Shown one piece after another: positions 16,877 to 42,362 of a stretch of 42,362 nt of DNA; position 1 is the first letter of the stretch; the number at the start of each line of letters is the position of its first letter. The position numbers were made by a program, and so were the translations under genes. The notes beneath the pieces are model-generated. The model was not told the DNA's origin. It worked only from the letters and a program-made list of their open reading frames with translations, and did no database searches. Origin of the DNA: Elusimicrobiota bacterium (lineage in GTDB: Bacteria > Elusimicrobiota > Elusimicrobia > UBA1565 > UBA9628); NCBI GenBank assembly GCA_028714015.1, contig JAQTNG010000004.1, forward strand, positions 1 to 42,362. The letters run 5' to 3'.

Positions 16877-17962
<1,086 letters not shown>

Positions 17963-18867: not shown

Positions 18868-19201
18868 GACGATCGCCATCGCCGCCGCCCGCGCCATGAA
18901 CGAAAACAAGGCCGGGGACATTCTCGTGCTCGACGTCAGAAAGACGAGCCCGCTGTCCGACTACATGATCATCGCGACCGCGCTGTCGCGGCCGCATCTC
19001 GAGTCCCTCGAGGACAAGCTCGCCGAGGCGCTCGAAAAGTCCGGCATCCGCGTCCACCACCGCAACCGCCCGCAAAGCGACCTGTGGCGCGTGCTCGATT
19101 TCGGCGGCCTCATCGTCCACCTGATGGTCGAGGAGGCGCGCGAGCTGTACGCGCTCGAGCGCCTGCACGACGGCGCGAAGGAGCTGGCATGGCGGAACTG
19201 A
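18851..19201 (+). CDS. rsfS: Ribosomal silencing factor RsfS
   Basis: DILVLDVRKTSPLSDYMIIATALSRPHLESLEDKL...HHRNRPQSDLWRVLDFGGLIVHLMVEEARELYALERL. Confidence 0.95.
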   Translation: MPKAFKTIAIAAARAMNENKAGDILVLDVRKTSPLSDYMIIATALSRPHLESLEDKLAEALEKSGIRVHHRNRPQSDLWRVLDFGGLIVHLMVEEARELYALERLHDGAKELAWRN

Positions 19202-20280
19202 CCGAAATTCTGGCGCAGACCGCGCGCCTCGGCGCCAGCGACCTGCACCTCGTCGTCGGCAAGCCCCCGATGGTGCGCCGCCAGGGTGTCATCGAACCTC
19301 TCCCGGGCCTGCCCGAGCTCAAGGCCGAGGAATGCGAGCGCATGATCTACTCGGTGCTCACCGAGGCCCAGCGCGCGAAGTTCGAGGAGGCCTGGGAGCT
19401 CGACGGCTCGGTCTCGCTACCCGGCGTCTCCCGCTTCCGCCTCAACGTCTCCCGCCAGAAGAACGGCATCGCCGCCGTCTTCCGCGTCATCTCGGCCAAG
19501 ATCCCGACGCCGGCCGAGATCGGGCTCATGCCCTCGATCGCGAACCTGATCGACCTGCCGCGCGGCCTCGTCCTCGTCACCGGCCCCACGGGCTCGGGCA
19601 AGTCCACCACGCTCGCCTGCCTCATCGAGCAGATCAATCTGAAGTACCCGAGAAAGGTACTGACGATCGAGGATCCGATCGAGTTCGTCTACGAAGACAA
19701 GCAGTCGCTCATCCTCCAGCGCGAGATCGGCTCGACGACGAAATCCTTCTCCGAGGCCCTGCGCCACTCGATGCGCCAGGACCCCGACGTGATCCTCATC
19801 GGCGAGCTGCGCGACCTCGAGACGATCCAGCTCGCGATCTCCGCCGCCGAGACCGGCCATCTGTGCTTCGCCACGCTCCACACGCACGACGCCGCGACCA
19901 CCGTCGACCGGATCATCGACGTGTTCCCCTCAGGCCAGCAGCAGCAGGTGCGGGTCCAGCTCTCGACGGTGCTCCAGGCCGTCGTCTGCCAGCAGCTCCT
20001 GCCGCGCAAGGGCGGCGGCGGCCAGGTCTGCGCGCGCGAGTTCATGAAGGTCACCAGCGGCATCGCGAGCTTGATCCGCGAATCGAAGACTCACCAGATC
20101 TACGGGGCGGTCGAGGCCGGAGCCAAGCACGGCATGATCACGATGGACCAGTACCTCGCCTTCCTGCTCAAGCAGGGCCTGCTCGAGGTCGACGAGGCCC
20201 TGGGCGCCGCGCACGAAGCGGAGACCGTCAAGCGCCTGGCCGGCATGGAAGTCGCGCCGCACTCCGGAACGAACGCATGA
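19189..20280 (+). CDS. pilT: PilT-family type IV pilus retraction ATPase (copy 2)
   Basis: MAELTEILAQTARLGASDLHLVVGKPPMVRRQG, LVTGPTGSGKSTTLACLIEQ, ILIGELRDLETIQLAISAAETGHLCFATLHTHDAATTVDRIIDVFP. Confidence 0.95.
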   Translation: MAELTEILAQTARLGASDLHLVVGKPPMVRRQGVIEPLPGLPELKAEECERMIYSVLTEAQRAKFEEAWELDGSVSLPGVSRFRLNVSRQKNGIAAVFRVISAKIPTPAEIGLMPSIANLIDLPRGLVLVTGPTGSGKSTTLACLIEQINLKYPRKVLTIEDPIEFVYEDKQSLILQREIGSTTKSFSEALRHSMRQDPDVILIGELRDLETIQLAISAAETGHLCFATLHTHDAATTVDRIIDVFPSGQQQQVRVQLSTVLQAVVCQQLLPRKGGGGQVCAREFMKVTSGIASLIRESKTHQIYGAVEAGAKHGMITMDQYLAFLLKQGLLEVDEALGAAHEAETVKRLAGMEVAPHSGTNA

Positions 20281-22478: not shown

Positions 22479-22883
22479 TTACACCGGATTTTCGAGATCG
22501 AGGCGCAAGCCGCCGAGGCCGGCGCGCGCGAACAGGTTGTAGATCGCGGACACCGCGAGCACGACGCCGTCCATCAGCACCATGTAGAAGAGGCTGAAGC
22601 CCGCGGTCGCGAGCGCGCGCATGAGCGGCGAGAGCCCCGCGCTCGGGGCCGCGAGGAAGGTCACCACGCCGCCCAAAAGCCCGAAGACGGCGAACACGCC
22701 GGACAGCGCGGGCTTCGTCGCGAGAAAGACCGCGACCCCGCAAACGGCCGCGGCGGCCGCCGCGACGGGCAGCCGCCCCGACCGCGCCGCGAACAGCGCG
22801 ACCGCCGCGGCCGCGAGGGCGAGCCCGGGGACGACGGGCGTCTTGAGCCAGAACGGATCGACCCGCTTGATGCGATAGCGCAC
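22479..22883 (-). CDS. Small integral membrane protein
   Basis: GTG start: VRYRIKRVDPFWLKTPVVPGLALAAAAVALFAARSGRLPVAAAAAAVCGVAVFLATKP...; about four hydrophobic segments; start overlaps the subtilase stop by 1 nt. Confidence 0.75.
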   Translation of the reverse strand: MRYRIKRVDPFWLKTPVVPGLALAAAAVALFAARSGRLPVAAAAAAVCGVAVFLATKPALSGVFAVFGLLGGVVTFLAAPSAGLSPLMRALATAGFSLFYMVLMDGVVLAVSAIYNLFARAGLGGLRLDLENPV

Positions 22884-24904
22884 TATTTGCCCGCGACCGG
22901 CACGGCGGCCGCGCGCAGGGCCTCGAGGGCCTGAAGCGGACGCACGACGAAAAACGGCTGGTCGATCGGCACGCCGGGAGGCAGCTTGTCGAGCGCCATC
23001 GGCGTCGAGCTCTGCACGAGAGCCGCCTTCAGGCGCTGGGCCGCCTCGATCGGATTGGGCACGAGCGTCATCTGGCCCATGTCCTGGACGAGCAAAGCGG
23101 TGACGCCCGTCATGGCCGGCGTCGCCATCGAGGTGCCGCTCATCGCGGCGTACTCGGGAACGCTCTTGCCGAACGAAAACGGCGACTGCGGCATCGTCGA
23201 GACGATGTTCGAGCCGGGCGTCATGAACACGTCCTTGACCACCGTGGTCAGCTTGCGCGCGTCGAAGCGCTTGCCGAAGGTCGTGAAGTCGGCCATGCGC
23301 CCCGCCGAGTCGAGCGAGCCGACCGTGATCGCCGAGGGCGCCGAAGAGGGCGAATCGATGCCTCCGCTCATGTTGCGCGAGTTTCCCGCCGCGATGAGGA
23401 AGATCACGCCCTTGCTCGCGTACTCCTCGACGACGCGCGAGAGCTGGCTCGAGGGGCCTTCGCCGGAGCCGAGGCTCATGTTGATGACCTGGTTGCCGTC
23501 CTTGACGGCGCGATGGATCGCGTCGATGATGGGCTGCTCCGGGTTCTCCCGGAGGGCGTCGTTGCCCTCGTCGCCGGCGAACACCGCGTAGCCGCGCAGC
23601 TCGGCGTCCGGCGCCAGCGCGTGGATGATGCCCGAGACGTGCGTGCCGTGGGAGCCGACGGCGCCCGCGCCGCGTTCGGCGGTGAAATTGACTCGCGCCT
23701 TGACCGCCCCGTCGAGCTCGGGATGCTCGGCGATGCCCTCGTCGATGACCGCGACCTTGACGCCCTTGCCCGTCAGGCCCTGCTTCCACAGGTCCTGCGC
23801 GCCCATGCGCCAGACCAGGTCGCCCATCGGAAAGGCCTTGATCAGGTTCTCCTGCTGGTCCGGGGTGAGCGGCGTCCCGTTGACGCGGTCGAGAACGCGC
23901 AGCAAGCCGGGAAGGCCCGACGCGAGCGGGGCGTACGGCTCGTCCTTCCCCTCCAGGCCCGGAGCCGACGGCTTCAGACCGGGACCGGCCGCGACGGGCT
24001 TCTTCTCCTTGCCCGGCTCGGGAACCGCGTCCAGATCGAGATAACGATGCGAACGCTGCTTCTCCAGATTGTTCAGAACCGCCAAGGCGTCGGCGGAATC
24101 CTTGCGGCGGACGGGGTCTCCGTCCTTGAGCGCGGCGGCCGCTTCGGCCTCCAGTTGAGCCTTGTAGCCCTGGAGCATCGCGGCCGGATCGGGACGCGCC
24201 TTCATGGCCGGAGACCCCAGCGGCGTCTCGCCGCCGCGCGGCGCCGCGAACAAAAGCAGGCGCGCGCGGTCGAGATCGGTCTGGGCGATGTCGGGGGCCT
24301 GATGATGGAACGCCTGGCCGTAGGCGTGGTCGATCAGGTTGAGGGCCTGCCCGGTCCGCTCGACGCCGAGCTTGGCGACCTGATCGGGCTTCGACGCGAG
24401 AATCGAGTGCATCATCATCCCGTAGTAGGTCGCGTCGCCGGCCGGATTGTACAACCGCTTGCCGTCGACGCTCGGCGGGAAGCCCCAGGCGGCCAGCGCC
24501 GCGCCGGCCTTCTGACGATCGACGCGCGCCGCCGAGGTGAACGAGGACAGGCCCTTCAGGATCGGAGCGAACATCTCCTGCGGCACGGCCTCGGGCGACT
24601 TGGAATAAAACAAAACGCCGTCCTTCCAACCGATAGCCGCCTTCTCGAGATAGCTCTTCGGGATCAGGCCCTTGTCGGCGCCGTCCGCGCGCGCGAGGCC
24701 CCCGTCCTTCTGGACCTTCCAGCCGATCTTTTCGAGCGCGGCGGCGGTCGCGGCCGAAACGACGACGCCGGGCTCGGCGTCGGGCCCGAGAGCCTTCGCC
24801 TTGACGGCCGGCAGGTCGGGGATCGGCGCGGTTTCGGTGCCGGCATAGGCGCCGAGGGGAAAGCCAACGAGGCACAGCATGAGCAAGAGGCGAGGGGTCA
24901 GCAT
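22883..24904 (-). CDS. Secreted subtilisin-like S8 serine peptidase with about 300-aa N-terminal region
   Basis: Signal peptide MLTPRLLLMLCLVGFPLGAYAG; catalytic motifs VAVIDEGIAEHPEL (D), GSHGTHVSGIIH (H), MSGTSMATPAMTGVTAL (S). Confidence 0.93.
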   Translation of the reverse strand: MLTPRLLLMLCLVGFPLGAYAGTETAPIPDLPAVKAKALGPDAEPGVVVSAATAAALEKIGWKVQKDGGLARADGADKGLIPKSYLEKAAIGWKDGVLFYSKSPEAVPQEMFAPILKGLSSFTSAARVDRQKAGAALAAWGFPPSVDGKRLYNPAGDATYYGMMMHSILASKPDQVAKLGVERTGQALNLIDHAYGQAFHHQAPDIAQTDLDRARLLLFAAPRGGETPLGSPAMKARPDPAAMLQGYKAQLEAEAAAALKDGDPVRRKDSADALAVLNNLEKQRSHRYLDLDAVPEPGKEKKPVAAGPGLKPSAPGLEGKDEPYAPLASGLPGLLRVLDRVNGTPLTPDQQENLIKAFPMGDLVWRMGAQDLWKQGLTGKGVKVAVIDEGIAEHPELDGAVKARVNFTAERGAGAVGSHGTHVSGIIHALAPDAELRGYAVFAGDEGNDALRENPEQPIIDAIHRAVKDGNQVINMSLGSGEGPSSQLSRVVEEYASKGVIFLIAAGNSRNMSGGIDSPSSAPSAITVGSLDSAGRMADFTTFGKRFDARKLTTVVKDVFMTPGSNIVSTMPQSPFSFGKSVPEYAAMSGTSMATPAMTGVTALLVQDMGQMTLVPNPIEAAQRLKAALVQSSTPMALDKLPPGVPIDQPFFVVRPLQALEALRAAAVPVAGK

Positions 24905-26379: not shown

Positions 26380-27768
26380 ATGAACGACCACTCGCGCGCC
26401 CGCTCGACCGACGCGTACACTTCTCCGCCCCGGAGCCGGAAGCCGGGTCGCGCGTCCGTTCTCGTCCCCGCCGGAGCGGGCGTCGCGGCGGCGGCCGCGG
26501 GCCTGGTCTGGTTTTTCTCCCCCGGGTTCTCCGCGCCGAAGGCCCCGGCCCCCCTCCCCGCCGCGCCGTCCGCCGAGCCCGTTCTCGCGATGCCGGAACG
26601 CCCCGCGGCGCCCCGGGCGCGAGCCGCCGCCGCGCCGGCCGCGCCGCTTCGCGCCGAGGCGGAGGCCGCCCCGGCGTCCGCCTCCTTCAAGCGGGACGCC
26701 GTCGAGCAGCCGGCCTGGGTCAAGGCCAAGGTCTCGCAGGCCTGGACCTGGCCGCGCCGCGTGGGGATACTGGACGAGGAGGGCACCGTCAGCCGCAAGC
26801 TCATCGGCTGGTTCCCCTCGAACGCCGCGGGCAAGACCCTTCAGTTCCTGCTGACGGCCGACCGCGTGGAGACGCGCCTCTACGAGGATGAAATCCCCGC
26901 GTTCGAGGCGCGCCGGGCGGCGGAGGCCGAGGCGCGCCGGGCGGCGGCGGAGGCCCTGGCCCGGGCGCAGCAGCAGGCGGCGGCTCTCGCTCAGGGACAG
27001 CGGCAGGTGGGCGTCAATCTTGAACAGATCCGCCAACGGGAGCGGGAGTCGCTGAGAGCGCAGAAGGGGGCCGCCGCCGTGCGCGACGTCACCGTCAACG
27101 GCGGTCCGGCCATGGCGGAATTCGTCTACGCCGGCGGCAAAAAGGAAGTCGTCCCCTACGACCCTCTCGTCTTCGACCTGAAAGATAAAGGAATCAAGAC
27201 CACCACGAAGAAGGTCCTGTTCGACCTTTACGGCTACGGCAAGGCCGAGAAGATCCAGTGGATGAACGATCTCGACGAGGGCACGGGAATCCTCGTTTTC
27301 GATTCGAACGGCAGCGGCCGCTCCGGCAAGACCGGCTCGGAGGTGTTCGGCGACCGCACCGACCTCACCGGCGTCGGTCAGCCCGGCGGATTCGCCAATG
27401 GATTCGAGGCGCTGCACGGCCTTGCCCGGAAGGCCGTCGCCGAAGGCGTCCTGCACCAGGAAGTCCTCGACCGGGCCATCCTCGATTCCGACGCGCTGGC
27501 CGCCCTGGAGAAAGCCTACGGTCTCAGAATGAAGGTCGGCGGCTTCAACCACGAGGCCGTCTCCCTGGCCGAGGCGGGCGTCAAGGCCATCGCGCTGTCG
27601 CAGGCGCCCGCTCAGCGCGTCGCGGACTTCGACGACCAAGCCAATGATCTGCTCGTCCAGCCGGGCGCCGTCTTCCTGCGCCGCGACGGCACGACGGGGA
27701 CCTACATGAACGTCTGGCTCAAGGCCAAGCTCGGGAACCTCGGCCTCAAGAAAACGGTCCTGAAGTAA
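26380..27768 (+). CDS. Single-TM, Ala/Pro-rich protein with coiled-coil-like segment and EF-hand-like motif
   Basis: ATG 26380; TM VLVPAGAGVAAAAAGLVWFF; FEARRAAEAEARRAAAEALARAQQQAAALAQ; WMNDLDEGTGILVFDSNGSGRSGKTGSEVFGDRTDLTG. Confidence 0.8.
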   Translation: MNDHSRARSTDAYTSPPRSRKPGRASVLVPAGAGVAAAAAGLVWFFSPGFSAPKAPAPLPAAPSAEPVLAMPERPAAPRARAAAAPAAPLRAEAEAAPASASFKRDAVEQPAWVKAKVSQAWTWPRRVGILDEEGTVSRKLIGWFPSNAAGKTLQFLLTADRVETRLYEDEIPAFEARRAAEAEARRAAAEALARAQQQAAALAQGQRQVGVNLEQIRQRERESLRAQKGAAAVRDVTVNGGPAMAEFVYAGGKKEVVPYDPLVFDLKDKGIKTTTKKVLFDLYGYGKAEKIQWMNDLDEGTGILVFDSNGSGRSGKTGSEVFGDRTDLTGVGQPGGFANGFEALHGLARKAVAEGVLHQEVLDRAILDSDALAALEKAYGLRMKVGGFNHEAVSLAEAGVKAIALSQAPAQRVADFDDQANDLLVQPGAVFLRRDGTTGTYMNVWLKAKLGNLGLKKTVLK

Positions 27769-27774
27769 CGACCC

Positions 27775-28776
27775 CTAGGGAGCCGGATCCCGCTTGCAAA
27801 CGATGGTGCCGTCCTCGGCGACCTCGAAGGACACGGACTTGGCGTTCGCGGCGCGGGCCTCGACGAAGTAGGACGCGTAGCGATCGAACAGTATCCGCTC
27901 GAGCTCGCGTATGCCGAACTTGCTGACGCGCATGTTCGCCTCAAGGGCCTGTATGATCAGCTCGGGCGCGACGAAATGCGTCTCGATGCCGTACTCCTGG
28001 CCGAGCTTGGCGATCTTGAGCAGCGAGATCTCGGCGACCTGCATGCCGACCAGCGGCTTGAAGAGATAGACCTTGTCCACGCGGCCGAGGATCTCGGGGC
28101 GGAAGGTTCCGCTCTCGGCCAGAAGGGTCTTGATCGCGTTCATGATGCGGGGATAGTCGGTGAGGCCCTGCACCGCCTTGCCCATGGAGTCGGCGAGGGA
28201 GTTGCTCGTCATGATGATCACCGACTGGGTGAAGTCCGCGGTCTTCCCGCTGCCCTGCTCGGTCAGGCGGCCTTCGCCCATGACCTGGAGCAGGAGATCG
28301 AAGATGACGGGGTGAGCCTTCTCGATCTCGTCGAAGAGCACGACGCGCTTGGGGTTGGCGAACATCGGCCGGGTGAGCTGGCCGCCCTGCTCGGCTCCGA
28401 CGTAGCCCGAGGACGCGCCGGTCAGGCGCGACTTGCCCATCTCGGCGCTGGCGAGCTCGGAGCAGTCGAAGCGCAGAAGGGCCTGCTCGTCGCCGAAGAG
28501 ATACTCGCAGATGGCCTTCGCCAGCTCGGTCTTTCCCGTGCCCGTGGGCCCGAGGAAAAGGAGGTTGCACACCGGCCGCGTGCGCTTGTCCTTCATCCAG
28601 CTCAGGCGTATGAGGCGCGCGACGTCCTCGATGATCTCGTCCTGCCCCTTCACGCGCGAGCGCAGGTGCGCGACGAGCTTCGCCTCGTCGACCGTGAATC
28701 GCTGGCTCTCCGCGTTGGAGGTCTTGAGCATCCCCTGGAGCTTGGTCCAGTCCGTCATCTTGGAAAGATCGCTCAC
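27775..28776 (-). CDS. Single-domain Clp-type (ClpB D2-like) AAA+ ATPase
   Basis: 333 aa; GPTGTGKTELAKAI (Walker A), VVLFDEIEKAHP (Walker B), GASSGYVGAEQGG (pore loop), IIMTSN (sensor 1), FRPEILGRVD (Arg finger), FGIRELER (sensor 2). Confidence 0.92.
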   Translation of the reverse strand: MSDLSKMTDWTKLQGMLKTSNAESQRFTVDEAKLVAHLRSRVKGQDEIIEDVARLIRLSWMKDKRTRPVCNLLFLGPTGTGKTELAKAICEYLFGDEQALLRFDCSELASAEMGKSRLTGASSGYVGAEQGGQLTRPMFANPKRVVLFDEIEKAHPVIFDLLLQVMGEGRLTEQGSGKTADFTQSVIIMTSNSLADSMGKAVQGLTDYPRIMNAIKTLLAESGTFRPEILGRVDKVYLFKPLVGMQVAEISLLKIAKLGQEYGIETHFVAPELIIQALEANMRVSKFGIRELERILFDRYASYFVEARAANAKSVSFEVAEDGTIVCKRDPAP

Positions 28777-28786
28777 CGTTTTCTCC

Positions 28787-30103
28787 TCATGGAAGGGTCC
28801 CTGGCCTGCGCCCGCGTCTAAAGATATCCTTCGAGAATCCGCCTCTCGCGATCGCGGCCCTCTTGGCCCCGAACATTTCCTCGATCGCGGTCGCGTCGCT
28901 GCCGCGAGTCGTGATGATCGGAGGCTTCTGCTTGCCCGTCACGGTCACGCGGGCGCCCTCATAGGCGACGATCTCCGGTTTCGCGTCGGCGCCGAGGCCA
29001 AAACTGCAATCCGAAAACCCGATAACGGCGTCGATCCAGGCGACGACCGGGCGACGGACGGAGGCGAAGAAGACACCCGTGAACTTCGCCTTGACCGGCC
29101 CGCGGATCACCGCGTCGACGACGACGCCGCTGAGGTGGCCTCCGTCGGCCGTGACGCGCGTGGGTTTATCGCCCTGCTCGACGATCAGCGCCGGGGCGGC
29201 GGCGTCAAAACTGACGAGATCGACATCGCGCATGGATAAAGTCGAGGCGATGGCGTAGACGCTCCCGCCCGGCTCGGTGCGCGGATTCTCCTGATCGGGG
29301 CGCCGTTCGATCCACAATTTTTCCAGATCGAGCGTTCCGTTGCGCACGCCGATCGTCGCGCCGCGTCCGGCCCAGATCACCTTGACGTCAATCGGATTCG
29401 AGCCGGCGCCGCGGATGCGCACGGACTTGTTCTGGACTTCGACGGGGCCGTCATAGGTTCCCGGCTTCACCAAAATGAGGTCGCCGCTGGCCGCGCTGAA
29501 CGCCGCGTCACGCAGGCTCGAGGTGTCCACCCCCGCCATGCCGGGCGGGCCGACCATGATGACCCCTTTGCGCGCCGATACGACCCGATTGAGCGGCGCG
29601 GGCTGCGCCTGGACCTGCATGGCGGCCTGCGGCTGAGGGACGCCCATCAGGCGTCCGATCAGTCCGTTGATCATGCCGCCGCCGGAGCCGCCGACGATGC
29701 CCTGGGTGTTCCCGACGCCCGTGCCCGTGATGGTCATCTTCGGAGGAGACGAAGGATCGGCTCCGGCCGCCGGCCCTGTCTGGGCGGCCGGATCCGGGGG
29801 AGCGACCAAATCCAGCCCTGTCGCCGCGCCGGCCCCGCTGTAGGTGGCGAGATCGGAGGAAGACCTCGGCGCCGGCGTGATCGGGGCTTCCGCGCCGGGG
29901 CCCGAGGGCGCGGGGGCGGCCGCCGCCGGGACCGGAGCCGCGGCCTCGGCGGATTTGGCGGCCGCCGGAGCGGCGGGCGGCGGCGAAGCCGGGGCCGCGC
30001 CGCGGCGGGTCGACGCCGTGCCGAGGACCGAGACCACGCACGCCGTGCCCGCGATGGCGGTGAACAACTGGAACCAGGAGTCCTTGAGCAGCCTTTTCTT
30101 CAC
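28787..30103 (-). CDS. Single-TM/secreted Pro-Ala-rich protein with predicted right-handed beta-helix-like C-terminal domain
   Basis: GTG start (GTGA overlap with upstream AAA+ stop): VKKRLLKDSWFQLFTAIAGTACVVSVLG; later GDLILVKPGTYDGPVEVQNKSVRIRGAGSNPIDVKVIWAGRGATIGVRNGTLDLEKLWIERR, which resembles pectin-lyase-fold repeats. Confidence 0.75.
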   Translation of the reverse strand: MKKRLLKDSWFQLFTAIAGTACVVSVLGTASTRRGAAPASPPPAAPAAAKSAEAAAPVPAAAAPAPSGPGAEAPITPAPRSSSDLATYSGAGAATGLDLVAPPDPAAQTGPAAGADPSSPPKMTITGTGVGNTQGIVGGSGGGMINGLIGRLMGVPQPQAAMQVQAQPAPLNRVVSARKGVIMVGPPGMAGVDTSSLRDAAFSAASGDLILVKPGTYDGPVEVQNKSVRIRGAGSNPIDVKVIWAGRGATIGVRNGTLDLEKLWIERRPDQENPRTEPGGSVYAIASTLSMRDVDLVSFDAAAPALIVEQGDKPTRVTADGGHLSGVVVDAVIRGPVKAKFTGVFFASVRRPVVAWIDAVIGFSDCSFGLGADAKPEIVAYEGARVTVTGKQKPPIITTRGSDATAIEEMFGAKRAAIARGGFSKDIFRRGRRPGTLP

Positions 30104-31212
30104 CGCCGCTCCGCCGCGAGCATCAAAGTCGCGCCGCCGGTGGACGGGTCGAAGCCCAGCGACACGGCGCTCGAGCCCTTTTTCCGGGCCTCGTCGAGGA
30201 GCGGGTCCATCAGGCGGCGCAGGCAGCGCGCGAGCTGGCGCACGCCGTACTCCCCGAACTCGGCGTTGAGCGCGACGGCGCGCGCGAGAAGCTCGGGCGA
30301 CAGGTAGCTGACCTCGATGCCCTGCTCGCGCCACTGCTTGGCGATCTGCAGGCAGGCGATCTCGGCGATGTGGATGGGGGCCAGCGCGTCCATCAGCACG
30401 ATCTCGCTGAAGCGGGCGAGGAAGGCCTTCTCGAAGCCGGCGTCCTTGATCAGAGCGTCGCGCGCGCGCGCCGCGAACGTGGCGGAATCGGCGGCTTTGA
30501 GCGCGCGCAGGCGCTCCGCGCCCGAGTTGCAGGTCGCGAAGAACACGCAGCCGCTGAAGTCCACCATCTTAGAGGACGCCTTGTCGCGGATGTGCCCGCC
30601 GTCGAGCGCCTCGAAGAGGCCGTGGAGCACGTCGGGATGGCACTTGTCGATCTCGTCGAGGAGCACGACGCGGTACGGGTCCTCGAGCAGCGCCCCGGTC
30701 AGCGAGCCCGTCTCCGCGCCGCCCGTCGCGCCGAGCAGGGCCTGGAGGTCGTACGGGTCCTTGAACTGGTTCATGCGCAGGATGACCGGCTCCTTCTCGG
30801 GCCACAGGGCCATCGCGGTCATCTGCGCGAGAAAGGTCTTCCCCGTGCCGGTGGGCCCGACGAGGAGGAAGGAGCCGAGGCTGCGCCCCGGGCGGGCGAG
30901 CTCGAGGCCGCGCTGGATCGAGTGCACGATCAGGTCCACGGCCGCGTCCTGGCCGCGCACGTTCTCCTTGATCCAGCTTCCGTAGTCGCGCAGCCGCATC
31001 TTGCGCAGGACCTCGTGGTCGATGAGGCCCTCGCCGCGCGCGGCCGCGTCGTCGCGCTGGACCGACCAGAAACGATAGATCATGCCGAGCGCGGCGATGG
31101 CGAATATCCAAGGCAGGGCCTCGGGCGCGCGCTGCTTCACCGACAACAAAGCGCCCCCGAGGGCCACGACGGCCATCATGATGAACAGCGGGTGCATGGA
31201 GCTTGATTTCAC
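30100..31212 (-). CDS. Membrane-anchored single-domain Clp-like AAA+ ATPase
   Basis: GTG 31212 (GTGA overlap) or ATG 31197; two N-terminal TM segments (HPLFIMMAVVALGGALLSV, LPWIFAIAALGMIYRFW); GPTGTGKTFLAQM, VVLLDEIDKCHPDV, FFATCNS, AFLARFSEIV, YGVRQLARCLRR. Confidence 0.88.
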   Translation of the reverse strand: MKSSSMHPLFIMMAVVALGGALLSVKQRAPEALPWIFAIAALGMIYRFWSVQRDDAAARGEGLIDHEVLRKMRLRDYGSWIKENVRGQDAAVDLIVHSIQRGLELARPGRSLGSFLLVGPTGTGKTFLAQMTAMALWPEKEPVILRMNQFKDPYDLQALLGATGGAETGSLTGALLEDPYRVVLLDEIDKCHPDVLHGLFEALDGGHIRDKASSKMVDFSGCVFFATCNSGAERLRALKAADSATFAARARDALIKDAGFEKAFLARFSEIVLMDALAPIHIAEIACLQIAKQWREQGIEVSYLSPELLARAVALNAEFGEYGVRQLARCLRRLMDPLLDEARKKGSSAVSLGFDPSTGGATLMLAAERR

Positions 31213-32078
31213 TTGTAGTCGACGGTCCAGGTGTCGCTTTCGCCCACGGCCATGTTGCGCGAGAGGATCGTCCCGGCCGAGGTCTGCAGGCCGAGCGTGA
31301 CCCCGCCGTCGCCGTCGCGCACGGCCGTGACCGTGATCCGGTGCGACTCGCCTTTCTTGAGAGGAATCTCGAGCGTCGCCCCGGCGTGGCTCAAGGACAG
31401 GTACGACATGGGCACGCCGTCGACCGAGATCTGCACCACGTCGCCGTCCTCGGCGCAATCGTCGATGAGCCGCATCGAGAAGATCGACCAGCCGTCGGAG
31501 CGCACCGCCGTCCGGCCCTGGGGCGTCAGGACGGACTGGGGCGCGGAGGCCGCGGGCGAGACGAGCTCGGGCGGAGCGACGGGAAGCGGCGAGGAGGCCC
31601 GGTTCTCGACGGGAGCGCCCGGAGCGCCGGCGGCCGGCGCCTGCTGGACCGGCGCGGAGGGCGCCGTCTGGACCGGCGGCGCGCCGCCGGAGCCCATCGT
31701 CGTCGGGCCGCCGCCCATCGTGCCTGCCGCGCCGATCGCGGCGGCGGCCGCGGCGCCCTCGGATGAGCGCACGCGCTCGGTGGCCGCTAAGCTGACGTCG
31801 GCGTCGGTGACCGTGAGGACCTTGTCTCGCTGCGCGGCGGCGATCGCGATGGGCGCAGGCCCCGACGGCGGGCGGAAATGGACGGCCGTGCCGGCCAGCG
31901 CCCCGGCCGCGATCAGCGCGGCGAGAACCAAAACGCCGCGCCCCTTGCGCGGCGGCCGGCCCGGCAGCGGAACGTAGGCCTGCGCGCGGGACGCGTCGAG
32001 CCCTTGGGGCGCGGACGCCGGCTTGGGCGCGGCGTCGGATTGCGGCTTTTGCGGCTCAGGATCGGGTTGTTCGTTCAT
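31209..32078 (-). CDS. Single-TM protein with disordered linker and C-terminal beta-rich domain
   Basis: ATG 32078: MNEQPDPEPQKPQSDAAPKPAS...RKGRGVLVLAALIAAGALAGTAVHFRPP; C-term VVQISVDGVPMSYLSLSHAGATLEIPLKKGESHRITVTAVRDGDGGVTLGLQ. Confidence 0.78.
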   Translation of the reverse strand: MNEQPDPEPQKPQSDAAPKPASAPQGLDASRAQAYVPLPGRPPRKGRGVLVLAALIAAGALAGTAVHFRPPSGPAPIAIAAAQRDKVLTVTDADVSLAATERVRSSEGAAAAAAIGAAGTMGGGPTTMGSGGAPPVQTAPSAPVQQAPAAGAPGAPVENRASSPLPVAPPELVSPAASAPQSVLTPQGRTAVRSDGWSIFSMRLIDDCAEDGDVVQISVDGVPMSYLSLSHAGATLEIPLKKGESHRITVTAVRDGDGGVTLGLQTSAGTILSRNMAVGESDTWTVDYK

Positions 32079-34672: not shown

Positions 34673-37600
34673 ATGAGTATTCTCAAAAAGCCGCTGGCCA
34701 GCGTGGCCGCGGCCGTCCTCTTCATCTCCGCTCCGGGGCCCGCCTGCTATCAGGCGGCGGCGCAAAGCCTCGGCTCGGCGAGCAGGGCGGCCGAAGCGGC
34801 GTCCGTCCCGGCGACGGGAGTCGTGCCCGCGCTGGGGACGGCGGCGGGCCCCCCCTCGCTTGCGCCGTTGAGCGCCCCGACGCTCGGGCTTCCGGCCGCG
34901 GCCGTCCCCGCGCCCGTCCCTCTTCCCGCGATGGAGCCGGCGCGCCCGATCCCCCTCGCCGCGGCGCAAAAACCCCAGGCCGCGGCGCTGCCGGAATTGG
35001 CGAAGGCGATGGCGCCGGCCCGCGCGCAGGACATGCCCGGGCGATTGGACGCGCTCTACAGCGGAGGCGTCGCGAAAGCGAGCGCGGACGCCGACGCGGT
35101 CGCCGGGACTCTTGGACACATCGAGCCCAGCGGGCTCGAAGAGTCGTCGCGGCGCTTCTTCGAGGGCGCCGCGAAGGGGGCCTGGCGGGGCTACTTCGAG
35201 AAGCACGTCAGCGCGCTCGGCCTTCCCTACGACAACGCCCAGTGGCTCGAAACGCATGACCCCGGGGAAAAGAACAACCTGGGATTGGAGACGATGCCCG
35301 ACGGCACGATCCGCTACGCGCCGACCTCGCCGACCAACATCGGCTACTACCTCACGGCGGTCGCGGCGGCGAAGTCCTTCGGCTGGATCTCGGACGCCGA
35401 GGCGCTCGCGCGCGTGCGCCGGACCCTCAAGACGCTCGGGCAGATGGAGAAATGGCACGGGCATCTTTACAACTTCTACGACGCGCGCACTTTGACGGCC
35501 ACCAGCCGGTTCGTCTCGACCGTCGACTCGGGCAACCTGGCCGCCGGCCTCATCGCGGTCGGCAACCTTCTTCCGGAGATCCGCGGCGAGGCCCGGGCGC
35601 TCTCGGACGCGATGGACTTCGGCCCGCTCTACGATAAGGAAAAAGGCCTGCTGCTCGTCGGCTACGACGCTCAGAACAAGGCGCCGGACGCGAACCATTA
35701 CGGCGACTATCTCTCCGAGTCGCGCCTCGCCTATCTCGTCGCCATCGGGCAAGGAAGCGTCCCGGCTTCCGCGTGGTCCCGCCTGGACCGGACGGGGAGC
35801 CTGGACGGCGGCGCCATGGATCACCTGGCCCCGCTGGCCTTTCTCGACGAGCCCGGCCATGAGGCCGATGTCCGGGCGCAGGCGAAAGACGCCGAAACGC
35901 TGAGCGGCAAATCGGTGTGGGGAAAGTCCGAGGCGGCCTATCTCGAGAAGGACGAAAACGGGCATTGGCATCATCGCTACGGGCGCTTCGGCGCGGCCGG
36001 GCTCGCCTCCAAGAAGTACGCTCCCGGCGGCGCGCGCAAAGAGAAGGTCGTCAGCCCCTACGTCAGCTTCCTGGCGCTCGCGGTTCCCGGCGTCGACGCC
36101 GGGGCGGTGAGGCGCAACCTCCGGAACCTGGCGGCGCTGGGCCTGCGCCGGCGCGACGGGGCGTTCCTCGACGGGGCGCAGAAGGACGCGGAGACCGGCA
36201 AGGCGCTGCCGATATCGCAGGTCTTCGCCAATCACCAGGGGATGTCGCTGGCGGCGTTGGCCAACTATTTGAAGGAAGGGATGATCCGAAAGGCGTTCTC
36301 GGGAGACGAGCGGATACAAAAGGCGCTCGCGCTGATCGACGGCAAGACCGCCGCGGGCGTCGAACGCAAGAAGGAAGGAGCCAGAAAGATCAACGGCCTC
36401 AACGGCGTGCCGGAGGCCCATTACTTCGGCGCGGGAAGCCTATTCGGAATGGTGACGAACTTCGGATCCGGATTCTTAAAGGCCACGGGCGACGTGGTGC
36501 GGTACGTCAACGAATATCTTGTCAACGCGTTCCGCGCCGATCCCGTCGAGCAGGAAGCCTGGGGCCCGTTCGTCTACGTCTCCGAAGACAAGGCCGTGTG
36601 GTCCACGGCCTATCAACCGACCCGCAGCGCCGATCCGGAGAAGCTCGAGGCGGAGTTCTGGCCCGGAGGCGCCACTTTGGGAAATTCCCAGCGCGGCGTG
36701 AGGTCGACGACGAGAATCTGGGCCGACTCGAGCGTGCAGGTGCAGGAGGTCACGCTCACCAACGAATCTCAGCATGACCGCCGTCTGGCTCTCACCAGCT
36801 TTCAGGACATGGCCCTTCAAAACGGCGGCGCGTATTGGGCGCATCCGGCTTACCAGAAGATCTTCATCCAGACCAAATATGACGCCGAAGCGGAGGCCAT
36901 CTACGGCCTGCGGCGCGGCCACGCTCCGGGCGAGACCTGGCCGGTGGCCTTCTATTTCTCGGACGCGCCGGCCGGACCGGGCGCGTCCTTCGAGACCTCG
37001 CGCGAGGCGTTCCTCGGCAAGGGCGGGGCCCGCGCGCCCGACGCGCTCGCCGGCGGGACATTGACGGGCATGACGGGCGCGGTGATCGAGCCCGCCGCCA
37101 TCCTCCAGCGGAGCGTGACGCTCAAGCCCGGAGAGAGCCGGACGGTGCGCTTCTTCACGGGCCTGGCGCAGGACGAGGCGGCCGCTCGGGCGACCATCGC
37201 GAGATACCGCGGCCTCGCGGCGACGAGCTTCGAGGGCTCGCGCCGGGAAGCGGTCCGCGCGGCGGAGAACGAAATCCTCGCGGCCGGGATCGCGCCTCGG
37301 AACCGCGCGAAGTGGGCCTCGGTCCGCTCCCAGCTGCTCTACCCGAAGCCCCGGCCGGTGGCCCAAGAGAGCGCGCCGCGCACGGGCCGTCCCGCCATCG
37401 CCTGGCGCGTCACCTCGGAAAGCGAGATCCCCGACGCGCTCGAGCTGATCTCGCTTCAGCCGTCGTGGCGGGAAAAGGGCGCCGCCGCCGATTTGGTCTT
37501 CCTGCTCGACATCGGCGGCGCGCTCGAAAAACAAAGGGTCAAAACCGCGCTCGAGGCGGCGACGACCCGGATCCTGCCGGGCTGGAACAGGACGACGCTC

Positions 37601-40600
37601 GAGGGCGTGCGCGTGCTCGACGCCGCGGAGATGTCCGCGGCGGAACGCAACGGGCTGGAGAGCAAAGCGTCGGTCCTGCTCGGCGTGGCGGCGCCGACCT
37701 CCGTCGCCTCGCCCGCTCCTCGAAGGGAACAGGGATCGAAGCGGGAGCCGGGGACGGGACCGCTGTTCGAGTTCGATTCGGCGAAGAACGAGGTCGTCAT
37801 CTTCCGGCCCAAGGACGTCCCGGGAGTCTGGTCGCACGTGCTGGCGAACGGCTACGGGACGCTGAAGGACGGGGAGGTTCCCGAGGATGGAGGACCCCAG
37901 TACGCGCTCCTGCTCACGCAGAACGGCGGAGGGTTCGCGGCGAGGTGGGACGCGCAGGGCAACCGGACGACGGGGTTCACCGCCGACCCGAGCGTGGACG
38001 CGCCTGCGATGGCGTTCCACCTGCGCGACCTGGAGACGGGAAAGCATTTCTCCTTGACGCCGGGAGCCGACGCCTCGGGCGCGGCCGAGCACAAGGTCCG
38101 CTTCGGCCAGGAAGGCTACGCCGTGTTCGAGGCGGCGCAGAAGGAAGCGGGGCTCAAGGCGTCGCTCACGGCCTTCGTGCCGCCGGACTCGCCGGTCGCG
38201 TATCTGGTCGTCGACGTCGAGAACCTGCGGGACGGCCCCCGGCGCCTCGACCTGACCGGGCTGGTGGACCTGGCTCTCGGCGAAGGGCCGAAGCAGGCGA
38301 ACCGCGCCGTGATCGTCTCGCGCGATCCCGCGACGGGCGCCCTGCTCGCCCGCAACCCCGACGGGAAATTCCCCGACGCCTCCGCCTTTTTCGCGGCCGT
38401 CTCGGGCCGCCCCTCCTCGTACGGCACGGACCGGGCCTCGCTGCTGGGGCTCGGCGGAGATCTCGGGAATGCGGCCGCTCTGTCCCAGCCGGAACTGCCG
38501 GGCGCCGAGGCCAGCTCGGGCAATCCGATGGCGGCGCTCCGGCTGCCGATCCTCGATCTGGCCAAGAAGGGCGACGTGACGCGCGTGGTCCTCGTGCTCG
38601 GACAGGGCAAGGACCGCGCGGAAGCTCTCGATTTAGTGGCGAAGATGCAAAAGGCGGGCGCGGGCGGCGTCGTCGCCTCGCTCGAAGAGACCCGCGACGC
38701 GTGGAAGAAGACGCGCTCGGCTCTACAGATATCCAGCCCCGAGTCCTCGCTCGACCCGATGATCAACGGCTGGCTGCCGCGTCAGGCGCTCAAGTCGCGC
38801 ATGGAAGCCCGCTCCGGCTACCATCAGGCCAGCGGCGCCTTCGGCGGACGCGACCAGGTGCAGGACAGCCTCATCGGACTGCACCTCGACCCGATGATCA
38901 CGCGCAACCAGATTCGCCTCGTGGCCCGGCGCCAGTTCCGCGAGGGCGACATACAGCATTGGTGGTTCCAGTTCCGCGGCCAGGAGAGCGGCTTCGGCGT
39001 CCGGACCAAGTTCTCCGACGACCTGCTCTGGATGCCCTACGCGCTGACCCAGTACCTGGACGCGACGGGCGACGAGTCGCTCCTGAAGGAACGGGAGCCC
39101 TACCTGCTCGGCCGCGAACTCAACGAGCACGAGCGCGACCGGGGCTCCGTCCCGAAGGCGTCCCCGGAGACCGGCTCGGTCTACGAGCACGCGACGCGCG
39201 CGATCGACCGGTCGCTGTCCAAGATGGGCGAGCACGGCCTGCCGCTCATGGGCACCGGCGACTGGAACGACGGCATGGGCGACGTCGGCGCCGAGGGCAA
39301 GGGCGAGAGCGTGTGGCTCGCCTTCTTCCTGTACGACGTCTTGCAGCGCTTCGCGCCGGTCGCCGAGAAGCAGGGCGACGCCGGGCGGGCCAAGCTTTAC
39401 CGAGAGCGCGCGGCGGCGCTCAAGGCCGCCATCGCGAAGCACGCCTGGGACGGCAAATGGTGGCTGCGTGCGTACTACGACGACGGCGGGCCTCTGGGAA
39501 GCGTGGCCAACGAGCAGTGGATGATCGACAGCCTCCCTCAGGCCTGGGCCGTGATCTCCGGCGCCGGCGACCCCGCGCGCAACAAGGAAGGCCTCGAGTC
39601 GGCGTGGCGCTACCTCGTCGACGAGAAGAACGGCATCGTCCGGCTCGGCACGCCGTTTTACAAAGACCCCCCGCGGTCCGGCCAAAATCACCCGGGCTCT
39701 TTGGCCGGCTATCCTCCGGGGCGCCGCGAGCACGGCTCCTATACGCACGCGGCCGTATGGCTCGCGATCGGCTTCGCGATGCAGGGCGACGGCGACCGCG
39801 CCTTCGAGCTTCTGGGCATGCTCAACCCGATGGTCCGCACGATGACGCCCGAGCGCCTGGCGCAGTACCAGCAGGAGCCCTACGCGGTGGCCGCCGACCG
39901 CAACGCCGACGAGCCGTTCCTCGGACGCGCCGGCTGGACCCAATACACGGGATCGGCCGGCTGGATGTACCGCGCCTATGTCGAGTACATACTGGGCCTG
40001 CGCTTCAAGGACGGCGGCCTGCTCGTCGATCCGGCGATACCGAGCGCCTGGGACGGCTACACGGCGCAAAAGACGCTCAAGCACCCCGCGCCCGAGGGCT
40101 CCGGCATGGGCCTGCGCGAAGCGCGCTACGAGATCACGGTCCGCAATCCGAATCACGTCTCCAAGGGCGTCGAGTCGATCCGCTTAGACGGGGCATTGCT
40201 GACGTCCGGAACGAGCGTCGTGCCGTTCCTCGACGACGGGAAGCTCCACAAGGTCGAGGTGCTGATGGGCGGGGCCGCCGCCGCGCCCCGAAAGGCTTCG
40301 GCCGGGCGCGACGTCGTCAAGGACAACCGGATTCGCGCGTTCGTGCGCGGGACAGTGCCCCGCGCCGCCAACGTCGTCGGACGGGCGTTCTCCCATGCCG
40401 CGGCCGCGGTTTCCGCCCGGGCCGTTTCCGCCTACGATCGCGGCTACGCCGCCGTGCGCTCAGCCTTGTCTCTGCCGTATTGGCTCGAGCTCTATCCCGC
40501 GTGGGTCCGGGTCGCCTACGCGGTCGCCCCGTCCGGGACCGAGCGGGCGCTGCGCGCGGCGATGGGCTTCCTCCAGCGCCGTCAGGCCGCGAAGATTTCC

Positions 40601-42362
40601 TCGGAGGACAAGGATTATCTCCTCGGCGTCCTGAAGAAGACCTGGCGCTACTACGACGACTACGCCGGCGCGGAGTACGGCCATCTGATCCCGGATCACA
40701 TCGACGCGGCCGGCACGAACAAGCCCGACGCCAAGGAAGGCCGCGAGCCCGGGCTCGACGGGAACATCGTCTACGCGCCCACCTCGCCGACCGACATCGG
40801 CTACGGCCTGATCGCGACGGCCGTCGCCGCGCGCTTCGGCCTCATCACGCGCGCTCAGGCCGTCGAGCGGCTGACCTCGGCGCTCAAGACCGTGGAGTCG
40901 CTGCCGAAGTTCAACGGCCTGCTCTACAACTTCTATCACGCGCGCACCACGGTCGCCACCTCCCGCTTCGTCTCGACGGTCGACAACGGGAACCTGGCCG
41001 CGGCGCTGACCACCGTCGGCAACCTCTTCCCCGAGGTGAGCGCCTCGGCGCACGGCCTGCGCGACGCGATGGACTTCGGCCTCCTCTACGATCCCGCCAA
41101 AAAGCTGATGCACATCGGCTACTCTCCCGACACGCGCGAGCTGACCTCGTCTTACTACGACATGCGCGTCAGCGAGGCGCGCACCGCGTACCAGGAGGCC
41201 ATCGCCAAGGGCGACATCCCCCCGGAAGCCTGGTTCGCCTTGGGCCACGCCGTCGTGCGCACGCCCGCGGGGACGACCTTCTCGAACTACGGCGGCACGG
41301 CGATGGAGTTCAGCACGCCGCTCGGCCACCTCAACGAGGCGGATCTGGCGCCGCACACCTGGGGCCTCGTGCTGCGCCGGTTCTACAAGAATCAGCTGAA
41401 GCTCGCGCGCCGCTGGAGCCTGCCCTTCTGGGGCCTGTCCGAATCCGGGCGCCCCGAGGCCTCCGACGACGGCGATCCGCTGTTCGGCTACAAGACCCAC
41501 GGCGACCCCGAGCTCTCGCAGGGGCACTACCGCCACAACGGCCCGGACAAGGACGTCGTGACTCCGTACGCGTCGGTGATGGGTCTCTCCGCCGGCATCG
41601 CGCCCTCCGCCGTGGTGGCGAACCTCCGCGCGCTCGAGGCCAAGGGCGCGCTCGGACCGTACGGCTTCTGGGAAGCGATGGCGGTCAAGCCCGACGGCAC
41701 CGCGGCCCCCGTCAAGCAGGTCATGGCGCACCATCAAGGGATGATCCTGCTCGCGATCGCCAACACTTTGACCGACGGCGAGTTCGGCAAGGCGTACAGC
41801 GGCGACGCCCGGATCAAGAGCCGGATATTGCCGCTGATTCAGGAGCGCATGCCGGAGATCTCGGCGGCCCGGACCGCGGCCGGGATCGCGGCGCCCAAGG
41901 CCCGCCACCTCGGCCTCGGCAACAAGACCTACGGCGCGGTCGTCGCCGAAGACGGCTCCATGATTTCCCGCGGTCGGGGCCCGCTCGACGCGGTATTGGC
42001 TCGCGCCGAGGTCGTCCGCGTCACGGATTCCGCGACCGGCAAGTCCTGGTCCGCGGGGCCCGACGCCAAGGCGAACTATCAGCCCGGCGTCGTCACGATT
42101 CGTTCCGAGCAGGACGGGATCAAAGTGACCGGGAGCCTCTCCGTCGACGGAGAATATCCCGTCGAAATCCTGGAAATGACGGTCTCAAACGCGGGCTCGA
42201 CGACGCGCAGCCTGCGCCTCGAAAACCCTTTCGAAGTCCGCGCCCAGGGCTCCGGCCGCCGTCCGGTCGCTTTCCGGGGCGGCGACGCGCCGGGACTCGT
42301 CCTTCAGCCCGGCGAGACGAAGACGGTCCGCTTCATCACCGGCCTGGCGTCCGACCCGGCCC
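34673..42362 (+). CDS. Giant secreted multidomain protein: glycoamylase-like, GH94 (glycoside phosphorylase), second glycoamylase-like (open at window end, at least 2563 aa)
   Basis: Continuous frame from ATG 34673 (MSILKKPLASVAAAVLFISAPGPACYQAAAQ) to the window end; first HQGMSLAALANYL module, SGAFGGRDQVQD and LPLMGTGDWNDGMGDVG (GH94), second module ending MAHHQGMILLAIANTL. Not in the ORF track because no stop occurs in the window. Confidence 0.92.
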   Translation, partial: MSILKKPLASVAAAVLFISAPGPACYQAAAQSLGSASRAAEAASVPATGVVPALGTAAGPPSLAPLSAPTLGLPAAAVPAPVPLPAMEPARPIPLAAAQKPQAAALPELAKAMAPARAQDMPGRLDALYSGGVAKASADADAVAGTLGHIEPSGLEESSRRFFEGAAKGAWRGYFEKHVSALGLPYDNAQWLETHDPGEKNNLGLETMPDGTIRYAPTSPTNIGYYLTAVAAAKSFGWISDAEALARVRRTLKTLGQMEKWHGHLYNFYDARTLTATSRFVSTVDSGNLAAGLIAVGNLLPEIRGEARALSDAMDFGPLYDKEKGLLLVGYDAQNKAPDANHYGDYLSESRLAYLVAIGQGSVPASAWSRLDRTGSLDGGAMDHLAPLAFLDEPGHEADVRAQAKDAETLSGKSVWGKSEAAYLEKDENGHWHHRYGRFGAAGLASKKYAPGGARKEKVVSPYVSFLALAVPGVDAGAVRRNLRNLAALGLRRRDGAFLDGAQKDAETGKALPISQVFANHQGMSLAALANYLKEGMIRKAFSGDERIQKALALIDGKTAAGVERKKEGARKINGLNGVPEAHYFGAGSLFGMVTNFGSGFLKATGDVVRYVNEYLVNAFRADPVEQEAWGPFVYVSEDKAVWSTAYQPTRSADPEKLEAEFWPGGATLGNSQRGVRSTTRIWADSSVQVQEVTLTNESQHDRRLALTSFQDMALQNGGAYWAHPAYQKIFIQTKYDAEAEAIYGLRRGHAPGETWPVAFYFSDAPAGPGASFETSREAFLGKGGARAPDALAGGTLTGMTGAVIEPAAILQRSVTLKPGESRTVRFFTGLAQDEAAARATIARYRGLAATSFEGSRREAVRAAENEILAAGIAPRNRAKWASVRSQLLYPKPRPVAQESAPRTGRPAIAWRVTSESEIPDALELISLQPSWREKGAAADLVFLLDIGGALEKQRVKTALEAATTRILPGWNRTTLEGVRVLDAAEMSAAERNGLESKASVLLGVAAPTSVASPAPRREQGSKREPGTGPLFEFDSAKNEVVIFRPKDVPGVWSHVLANGYGTLKDGEVPEDGGPQYALLLTQNGGGFAARWDAQGNRTTGFTADPSVDAPAMAFHLRDLETGKHFSLTPGADASGAAEHKVRFGQEGYAVFEAAQKEAGLKASLTAFVPPDSPVAYLVVDVENLRDGPRRLDLTGLVDLALGEGPKQANRAVIVSRDPATGALLARNPDGKFPDASAFFAAVSGRPSSYGTDRASLLGLGGDLGNAAALSQPELPGAEASSGNPMAALRLPILDLAKKGDVTRVVLVLGQGKDRAEALDLVAKMQKAGAGGVVASLEETRDAWKKTRSALQISSPESSLDPMINGWLPRQALKSRMEARSGYHQASGAFGGRDQVQDSLIGLHLDPMITRNQIRLVARRQFREGDIQHWWFQFRGQESGFGVRTKFSDDLLWMPYALTQYLDATGDESLLKEREPYLLGRELNEHERDRGSVPKASPETGSVYEHATRAIDRSLSKMGEHGLPLMGTGDWNDGMGDVGAEGKGESVWLAFFLYDVLQRFAPVAEKQGDAGRAKLYRERAAALKAAIAKHAWDGKWWLRAYYDDGGPLGSVANEQWMIDSLPQAWAVISGAGDPARNKEGLESAWRYLVDEKNGIVRLGTPFYKDPPRSGQNHPGSLAGYPPGRREHGSYTHAAVWLAIGFAMQGDGDRAFELLGMLNPMVRTMTPERLAQYQQEPYAVAADRNADEPFLGRAGWTQYTGSAGWMYRAYVEYILGLRFKDGGLLVDPAIPSAWDGYTAQKTLKHPAPEGSGMGLREARYEITVRNPNHVSKGVESIRLDGALLTSGTSVVPFLDDGKLHKVEVLMGGAAAAPRKASAGRDVVKDNRIRAFVRGTVPRAANVVGRAFSHAAAAVSARAVSAYDRGYAAVRSALSLPYWLELYPAWVRVAYAVAPSGTERALRAAMGFLQRRQAAKISSEDKDYLLGVLKKTWRYYDDYAGAEYGHLIPDHIDAAGTNKPDAKEGREPGLDGNIVYAPTSPTDIGYGLIATAVAARFGLITRAQAVERLTSALKTVESLPKFNGLLYNFYHARTTVATSRFVSTVDNGNLAAALTTVGNLFPEVSASAHGLRDAMDFGLLYDPAKKLMHIGYSPDTRELTSSYYDMRVSEARTAYQEAIAKGDIPPEAWFALGHAVVRTPAGTTFSNYGGTAMEFSTPLGHLNEADLAPHTWGLVLRRFYKNQLKLARRWSLPFWGLSESGRPEASDDGDPLFGYKTHGDPELSQGHYRHNGPDKDVVTPYASVMGLSAGIAPSAVVANLRALEAKGALGPYGFWEAMAVKPDGTAAPVKQVMAHHQGMILLAIANTLTDGEFGKAYSGDARIKSRILPLIQERMPEISAARTAAGIAAPKARHLGLGNKTYGAVVAEDGSMISRGRGPLDAVLARAEVVRVTDSATGKSWSAGPDAKANYQPGVVTIRSEQDGIKVTGSLSVDGEYPVEILEMTVSNAGSTTRSLRLENPFEVRAQGSGRRPVAFRGGDAPGLVLQPGETKTVRFITGLASDPA

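Follow-up and report, generated by a model that had tools for sequence, protein, structure and literature searches.

Most known HSP100 unfoldases are soluble proteins that form double rings, and those of class I combine two tandem AAA+ domains with an N-domain and a middle domain. In eukaryotes, Torsin represents a single-domain Clp-D2-like AAA+ protein paired with LAP1 or LULL1, a membrane-spanning AAA-like partner that can lose its ATPase residues. GspA/ExeA of type II secretion carries a cytosolic AAA+ domain, a transmembrane (TM) segment and a periplasmic domain in one chain, and the MoxR-vWA-beta-propeller ternary systems encode an AAA+ protein with repeat-domain partners in a conserved operon. 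The locus considered here lies at positions 26380 to 32078 of a 42,362-nucleotide stretch of DNA (hereafter the window; contig C4, JAQTNG010000004.1) from a 4.05-Mb metagenome-assembled genome of Elusimicrobiota, whose nearest named relatives are also Elusimicrobiota. It features a core module of four genes in the order P0001, memAAA, anchor protein and solAAA, in which two Clp-like AAA+ ATPases are encoded with membrane-tethered partners. These four genes almost certainly form one cell-envelope machine, which is apparently undescribed. A first-pass annotation of the sequence had recognised no named system in this combination, and profile searches likewise assign the partners to no described machinery. 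Additionally, a literature search, which covered open-licence PMC full text only and is thus weak evidence of novelty, found no paper describing the combination of genes.

Gene order and distribution of the module

The core genes are arranged as a minus-strand operon. P0001 (31209..32078; 289 aa) comes first and comprises a Pro-rich cytosolic tail with AYVPLPG, one TM segment, a post-TM motif, a linker, and a C-terminal beta-sandwich. It is followed by P0002, or memAAA (30100..31212; 370 aa), with two N-terminal hydrophobic segments and one Clp-D2-like AAA+ domain, and by P0003, the anchor protein (28787..30103; 438 aa), a single-pass protein with a K-D-S-W-F-Q juxtamembrane motif, a Pro/Ala linker, and a periplasmic right-handed beta-helix. 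The last gene, P0004 or solAAA (27775..28776; 333 aa), encodes a single Clp-D2-like nucleotide-binding domain (NBD) with an N-terminal MTDWxxLxxML motif. The P0001/P0002 and P0002/P0003 junctions are 4-nt overlaps (GTGA), and a 10-nt gap separates P0003 from P0004. A fifth gene, P0005, converges from the plus strand and its 3' end is 6 nt away from the end of P0004. On re-reading of the sequence, all five open reading frames of the first-pass annotation were confirmed with their coordinates, overlaps, and motifs.

The foremost evidence for the module is the persistence of its gene order. Orthologues of P0004 with 64-96% identity occur in 12 of 37 other close genomes, and across the phylum 25 of 341 genomes carry a solAAA orthologue. 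We read 23 contiguous Elusimicrobiota loci; at each of them memAAA, anchor, and solAAA follow one another on one strand, with the anchor gene between the two ATPase genes. At a 24th locus (G009) the genes are distributed over two contigs in a way compatible with this order, and one genome (G169) was left out. The same order is kept in 4/4 Verrucomicrobiota loci, all from one order (L060, L061, L186, L187), and in four of the six Bdellovibrionota loci (L062, L063, L179, L182). Thus, the partner genes stay beside the AAA+ genes in relatives, and a gene order recurring in three phyla is far beyond chance. The module is nevertheless patchy, being present in 6 of 369 sampled Bdellovibrionota and in 4 of 213 genomes of one Verrucomicrobiota order. 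A 388-genome Verrucomicrobiota sample contained it only in the query genome itself, and solAAA was absent from five single genomes, which make no survey, named Omnitrophota, Deltaproteobacteria, Wallbacteria, Fibrimonadales, and Opitutaceae.

The pairwise distances of memAAA and solAAA are correlated across 29 genomes (r=0.94, to which shared species history contributes). As the AAA_2 matches of both proteins are generic, they might have been regarded as ordinary Clp paralogues with accidental neighbours. However, an order kept over three phyla and a phage, together with correlated distances, refutes this explanation, for which we retain next to no probability. It is the retention of this order in three distant phyla and one phage that makes the four genes almost certainly one envelope machine.

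The two ATPases also seem to transfer together. In both ATPase families, one lineage of Elusimicrobiota (G215) falls together with the Verrucomicrobiota (92/85 and 90/83), which is consistent with joint transfer of the module. Furthermore, a 43-kb IMG/VR contig of a tailed phage (G1301) carries the genes P1, memAAA, anchor, anchor, a 303-aa protein, and solAAA, adjoining phage portal, capsid, terminase, tape-measure, and DNA-polymerase genes. This contig is the sole match to the solAAA signature pattern among 2.9 million IMG/VR contigs, so phage carriage rests on a single metagenomic assembly. Viral scans with the ATPase alignments returned mostly generic Clp proteins, and matches in plasmid and phage records were all below 60% identity, the best being 36-40% and Clp-like.

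The patchy distribution, the signs of transfer as a unit, and the full variant on a phage contig, with replication genes of the phage on its flanks, could point to an envelope system for phage defence or superinfection exclusion. Such a role is considered improbable: a single contig out of millions carries the signature, the genes read around chromosomal copies have a housekeeping look and do not resemble a defence island, and PADLOC matches of the module reflect just generic AAA similarity. The model of DolB, which in Dodola defence goes with a partner gene, scores 58.8 and 46.7 bits with the two ATPases, with the match confined to the AAA region.

The two ATPases and their relatives

Both motors belong to a known ATPase superfamily, and newness applies to the system as a whole. 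Pfam AAA_2 matches P0002 with E=1.5e-25 and P0004 with E=2.2e-40, and each protein has one NBD, in agreement with the first-pass description of two single-domain Clp-like AAA+ proteins. The closest described relatives in sequence are the D2 domains of ClpB, ClpC, and ClpA, which share Walker A and B, the sensors, the Arg finger, and the pore loop with solAAA; the PDB profile match to ClpC (3J3T) reaches E=1.7e-62. The best NCBIfam match of either protein is the second half of the ClpB/ClpA models, far under the full-length cut-offs (ClpB scores of 208 and 129 vs 1232). In contrast to HSP100 proteins of class I, the module ATPases, at 333 and 370 aa, have neither N-domain nor middle domain, and the module includes a membrane-anchored sister ATPase and fixed partners. 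A maximum-likelihood tree of 54 sequences separates solAAA, memAAA, and the sampled Clp/ClpB D2 domains into three groups, each with 100% bootstrap. As judged from these sequences, both ATPases are new clades outside the sampled D2 domains and a new branch of the superfamily.

The two families differ in conservation. Walker A, Walker B, sensor 1, Arg finger, sensor 2, and the pore aromatic (Y/F) are kept in 30/30 solAAA sequences, and the MTDW-type N-terminal motif is present. P0002 also has Walker A/B, sensor 1, Arg finger, and sensor 2 and has lost the pore-loop aromatic. Within the memAAA family the catalytic motifs are kept in most members, and many have Q, M, S, H or V, or a deletion, at the position of the pore aromatic. 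Two Bdellovibrionota loci (L180 and L181) go further, their memAAA being without Walker B, sensor 1, and Arg finger beside an intact solAAA; by these motifs it is a pseudo-ATPase in both genomes. Full conservation of solAAA alongside decay of memAAA suggests that solAAA is likely the conserved motor of the module and that ATP hydrolysis by memAAA itself may be dispensable in at least one lineage. The first-pass annotation had called P0002 membrane-anchored; the anchoring stands and can be refined, since two hydrophobic segments ahead of the ATPase domain make P0002 probably a two-pass protein with its ATPase domain in the cytosol.

Torsin offers a parallel to this pairing, as an active AAA+ protein again stands beside a membrane AAA that can decay. 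Unlike Torsin, the module ATPases are presumably cytosolic, and solAAA retains the Arg finger and pore aromatic; the Torsin Pfam model gives 21.2 and 19.7 bits against a cut-off of 27. The TssH/ClpV model TIGR03345 scores 150.6 and 118.4 bits vs a cut-off of 885, and no T6SS-like (type VI secretion system) genes were recognised by eye among the called neighbours, which were not searched systematically. The bpMoxR score is 20.1 vs a cut-off of 27; the MoxR ternary systems likewise join an AAA+ protein to repeat-domain partners in an operon, but no vWA or propeller gene was recognised here. Taken together with the comparisons to GspA and ClpP below, none of ClpB, ClpA/C with ClpP, TssH, Torsin, GspA, and the MoxR ternary systems agrees with the module in every defining feature tested.

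Owing to the HSP100 type of the motors, a role in membrane quality control may be imagined, with the ATPases extracting membrane proteins for a ClpP-type peptidase. A memAAA and beta-helix paralogue in the same genome indeed has a ClpP-like protease as its neighbour (L052; E=3.2e-20 to Pfam CLP_protease). However, a ClpP-like gene stands beside memAAA in none of the other genomes examined, the protease is predicted to be exported, and the ClpP-docking loop [LIV]-G-[FL] is not conserved in the solAAA alignment, where the stretch reads by inspection xGLTDY, xGMKDY or xEMTDY. A protease feeder is therefore very improbable, and the ClpP link was dropped on account of its absence beside memAAA in other genomes.

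Some further observations concern these families. The paralogous memAAA and beta-helix pair occurs without solAAA (L052 4704-7510, G000:C22), and the predicted exported ClpP-like protease next to it (2967-4702) has 490 aa and is accompanied by an 87-aa TM protein. Across the host order, such a protease is found in 25/56 genomes, independent of the two-ATPase module. The memAAA gene is broken by a stop in G031 (L049 7313-8482) and the beta-helix gene lies in two frames in G011 (L045 8875-10635), each representing a sequencing error or a decaying copy. In the two loci without an anchor gene, solAAA is followed by a gene (L180 4243-5127, L181 6322-7140) for a Cys-rich protein with a C-terminal Cys cluster and one hydrophobic segment.

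Tethered partners and neighbouring genes

The anchor protein combines a conserved N-terminus with an exchangeable periplasmic part. D-x-W-x-Q ahead of the TM segment is the best-conserved part of P0003, with D8, W10, and Q12 invariant in a 12-sequence alignment, and its W-F-Q is retained in the phage version despite Sel1 repeats replacing the beta-helix. Pfam Beta_helix matches 7/12 P0003 orthologues (best 2.6e-30), with NosD also found, and Beta_helix is further matched in L061 and L182. The beta-helix-like domain named in the first-pass annotation is thus clear in orthologues, although in the window protein itself it is under the Pfam threshold. Against PDB, the profile of the family retrieves pectinesterases and a phage tail fibre.

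Pectinesterase- and NosD-type beta-helix domains are common among carbohydrate-binding proteins, and all partners are periplasmic proteins tethered by Pro/Ala linkers. These features would suit a helper of envelope assembly or secretion comparable in role to GspA/ExeA, in which the ATPases build P0001, P0003, and P0005 into a trans-envelope structure without unfolding clients and the beta-helix binds peptidoglycan or another polysaccharide. GspA/ExeA indeed resembles the module in coupling an inner-membrane AAA+ to periplasmic partners. It differs in that the hydrophobic segments of P0002 are N-terminal of the AAA+ domain with no domain after it, and the periplasmic parts are in separate proteins. 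No secretin or other type II gene was recognised by eye near the module, nor any pseudopilin or outer-membrane channel as a recurrent neighbour, and the intact pore aromatic of solAAA argues for threading. An assembly helper is hence rather unlikely.

P0001 carries the second type of tethered domain. The C-terminal beta-rich domain assigned to it at first pass models as a beta-sandwich with good confidence (AlphaFold2, mean pLDDT 76 for the protein), but it has no significant fold relative in the PDB (best E=0.03, a chitinase beta-domain). Its post-TM motif reads VLTVTDADxxxAATExxR. Homologues lie directly upstream of memAAA in most Elusimicrobiota loci, and elsewhere the slot is taken by another single-TM protein. 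The P1 family clearly extends to Bdellovibrionota (hhalign to L182 with prob 99.3, E=3.4e-20). Verrucomicrobiota P1 proteins share the tail motif and the post-TM motif; since hhalign aligns only the latter (E=0.0024, prob 12), the likeness is left at motif level.

The tail motif, [AGPE]-Y-[TVIA]-x(0,2)-P, is common to the cytosolic tails of P0001, P0005, and Sel1-type partners, and its narrower form [AGP]Y[TVI]xP is shared by P1 proteins from three phyla, P0005, and Sel1-type partners. It appears as AYVPLP in P0001 (residues 34-39, immediately ahead of the TM segment; 31962..31979, minus strand) and as AYTSPP in P0005 (residues 12-17; 26413..26430, plus strand). Among the 54 single-TM proteins called at module loci, 24 have the motif, all of them inside or beside the module, and these proteins span three unrelated periplasmic architectures. 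Around one module locus (L163 11115-13541), three more single-TM proteins have Pro-rich tails, suggesting a wider set of tail-bearing partners.

P0005 (26380..27768, plus strand; 462 aa) comprises a DAYTSPP tail, one TM segment, a periplasmic linker, and a C-terminal domain resembling the self-processing module (SPM) of FrpC. This domain runs from a putative scissile Asp261-Pro262 (27160..27765, plus strand) and is an FrpC-type SPM by profile and modelled fold. The family profile matches FrpC SPM 6SJW with E=3.1e-6. The AlphaFold2 model (pLDDT 82.5, pTM 0.81) matches 6SJX in Foldseek (E=3.8e-7, prob 1.00, TM-score 0.58 on query and 0.69 on target), and two FrpC SPM entries are its sole significant PDB matches (E=3.8e-7 and 5.7e-7). 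In FrpC, calcium binding leads to cleavage at Asp414-Pro415, and the reactive anhydride then links to a lysine (PMC7078468). Asp261-Pro262 occupies the position of this pair at the domain start; across the P0005 family, Asp-Pro is found in 12/17 members, Ser-Pro in 4, and Cys-Pro in 1. The EF-hand-like motif noted at first pass is a calcium-binding loop and can now be placed as one loop of the SPM: of the four EF-hand-like sites of FrpC, one canonical loop (DSNGSG..FGD) is kept, site 1 is partly degenerate, and sites 3-4 are unrecognisable. Thus, P0005 has the modelled fold, the Asp-Pro, and one loop followed by FGD in common with FrpC, but it has lost most of the calcium sites and is tethered to the inner membrane, whereas FrpC is an RTX exoprotein. 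Calcium-dependent self-cleavage and isopeptide linkage by P0005 are putative.

P0005 is a real but accessory partner. Within the host order, solAAA is present in 12/14 genomes with P0005 and in 4/42 without it (Fisher p=2.5e-7, shared ancestry uncorrected). Its membership of the system, as first proposed, is upheld by this genome-wide co-occurrence, but not as a core gene, a status that was dropped because P0005 adjoins the module in just five genomes and at varying positions (downstream-convergent in 3, upstream in 2).

Other genes of the window and genome deserve mention. A giant gene (34673-42361, plus strand; at least 2563 aa) starts in the window and continues beyond its edge, with GH94 supersandwich, catalytic, and glucoamylase-like domains resembling a cyclic beta-1,2-glucan synthase. 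Two paralogous PilT-like ATPase genes, judged by eye (16877-17962 and 19189-20280, plus strand), flank a cyclic-nucleotide-binding-type gene, a neighbourhood also seen in L039 and L040 and not in L044. The window further encodes a predicted exported subtilase (22883-24904, minus strand; Peptidase_S8 E=5e-39). Elsewhere in the genome, a 2489-aa open frame (L053 1-7467, G000:C6) has AAA+ domains of Clp type and, in addition, a weak match to M50 (site-2 protease). AAA_2 matches fall within open frames of 1800-3400 aa in many relatives, perhaps a conserved giant protease-unfoldase protein, and in G036:C5 (around 46192-52836) two Clp-like AAA matches lie within one 17,755-codon open frame.

A proposed split remodelling machine at the inner membrane

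These features are best explained, with a probability that we put at roughly 0.45, by a remodelling machine of HSP100 type that is split between two ATPases and docks at the inner membrane. In this machine, solAAA would be a single-ring Clp-D2-like motor that threads or pulls polypeptide, and memAAA, fixed in the inner membrane, would dock the motor and probably regulate it, either in a ring stacked on it or in a hexamer of both proteins. The W/Q juxtamembrane helix of P0003 would pack on memAAA, and its beta-helix, or the Sel1 repeats in the phage, would be shown to the periplasm, coupling the complex there. On the cytosolic side, P0001 and further single-pass proteins of accessory type, P0005 among them, would each expose a short disordered tail with Tyr-x-(x)-Pro. 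The ATPases may grip or dock on this tail in order to extract, activate or assemble the protein that bears it, be it a client or an adaptor, and P0005 would contribute a calcium-dependent domain that clips and links in the periplasm. What the sequences show is a kept gene order, correlated divergence with signs of joint transfer, conserved motifs, and the identities of the domains; we infer the topology, the assembly of the two ATPases with each other, the recognition of the tails, the direction of force, and self-cleavage by P0005. In the first-pass annotation, the tethered proteins were proposed as targets of the ATPases, which would act on them or assemble them across the inner membrane; the conserved motifs make this plausible.

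Several points weigh against this split machine. L180 and L181 have no anchor gene, only memAAA followed by solAAA, and the interactions within the machine are putative. The inferred transfer of the module rests on moderate branch support. Moreover, the regular expression for the tail motif was chosen after inspecting sequences, and P1 members are mutually homologous and so not independent; the motif is therefore a lead and not a statistic. In a scan of the own genome, a related, looser DNA pattern was not enriched, matching 9 times against 8 for the control, and none of the matches to this pattern, which is not the exact motif, was at an N-terminal tail ahead of a TM segment. Additionally, AAA+ initiation sites are not typically Pro-rich tails.

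A broader idea, put forward tentatively and with considerable doubt, is that of an undescribed class of envelope machine. In such a class, a split HSP100, made of a soluble Clp-D2-like motor and a membrane-embedded AAA+ protein able to decay to a pseudo-ATPase, would read the Tyr-x-x-Pro tails of single-pass proteins and act on effectors in the periplasm, among them a clip-and-link domain triggered by calcium. The module would move between phyla and onto phages as a cassette with exchangeable periplasmic heads, either beta-helix or Sel1.

If the split machine is real, a membrane-docked two-gene HSP100 with tail-tagged single-pass partners would represent a new kind of trans-envelope remodelling. 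It would also provide a bacterial instance of an active AAA+ protein paired with a membrane AAA able to become a pseudo-ATPase, an arrangement otherwise familiar from Torsin. Furthermore, it would place an anhydride-forming self-processing module, known from RTX exoproteins, beside an inner-membrane ATPase. With a gene set consistent over three phyla, the idea is open to direct testing.

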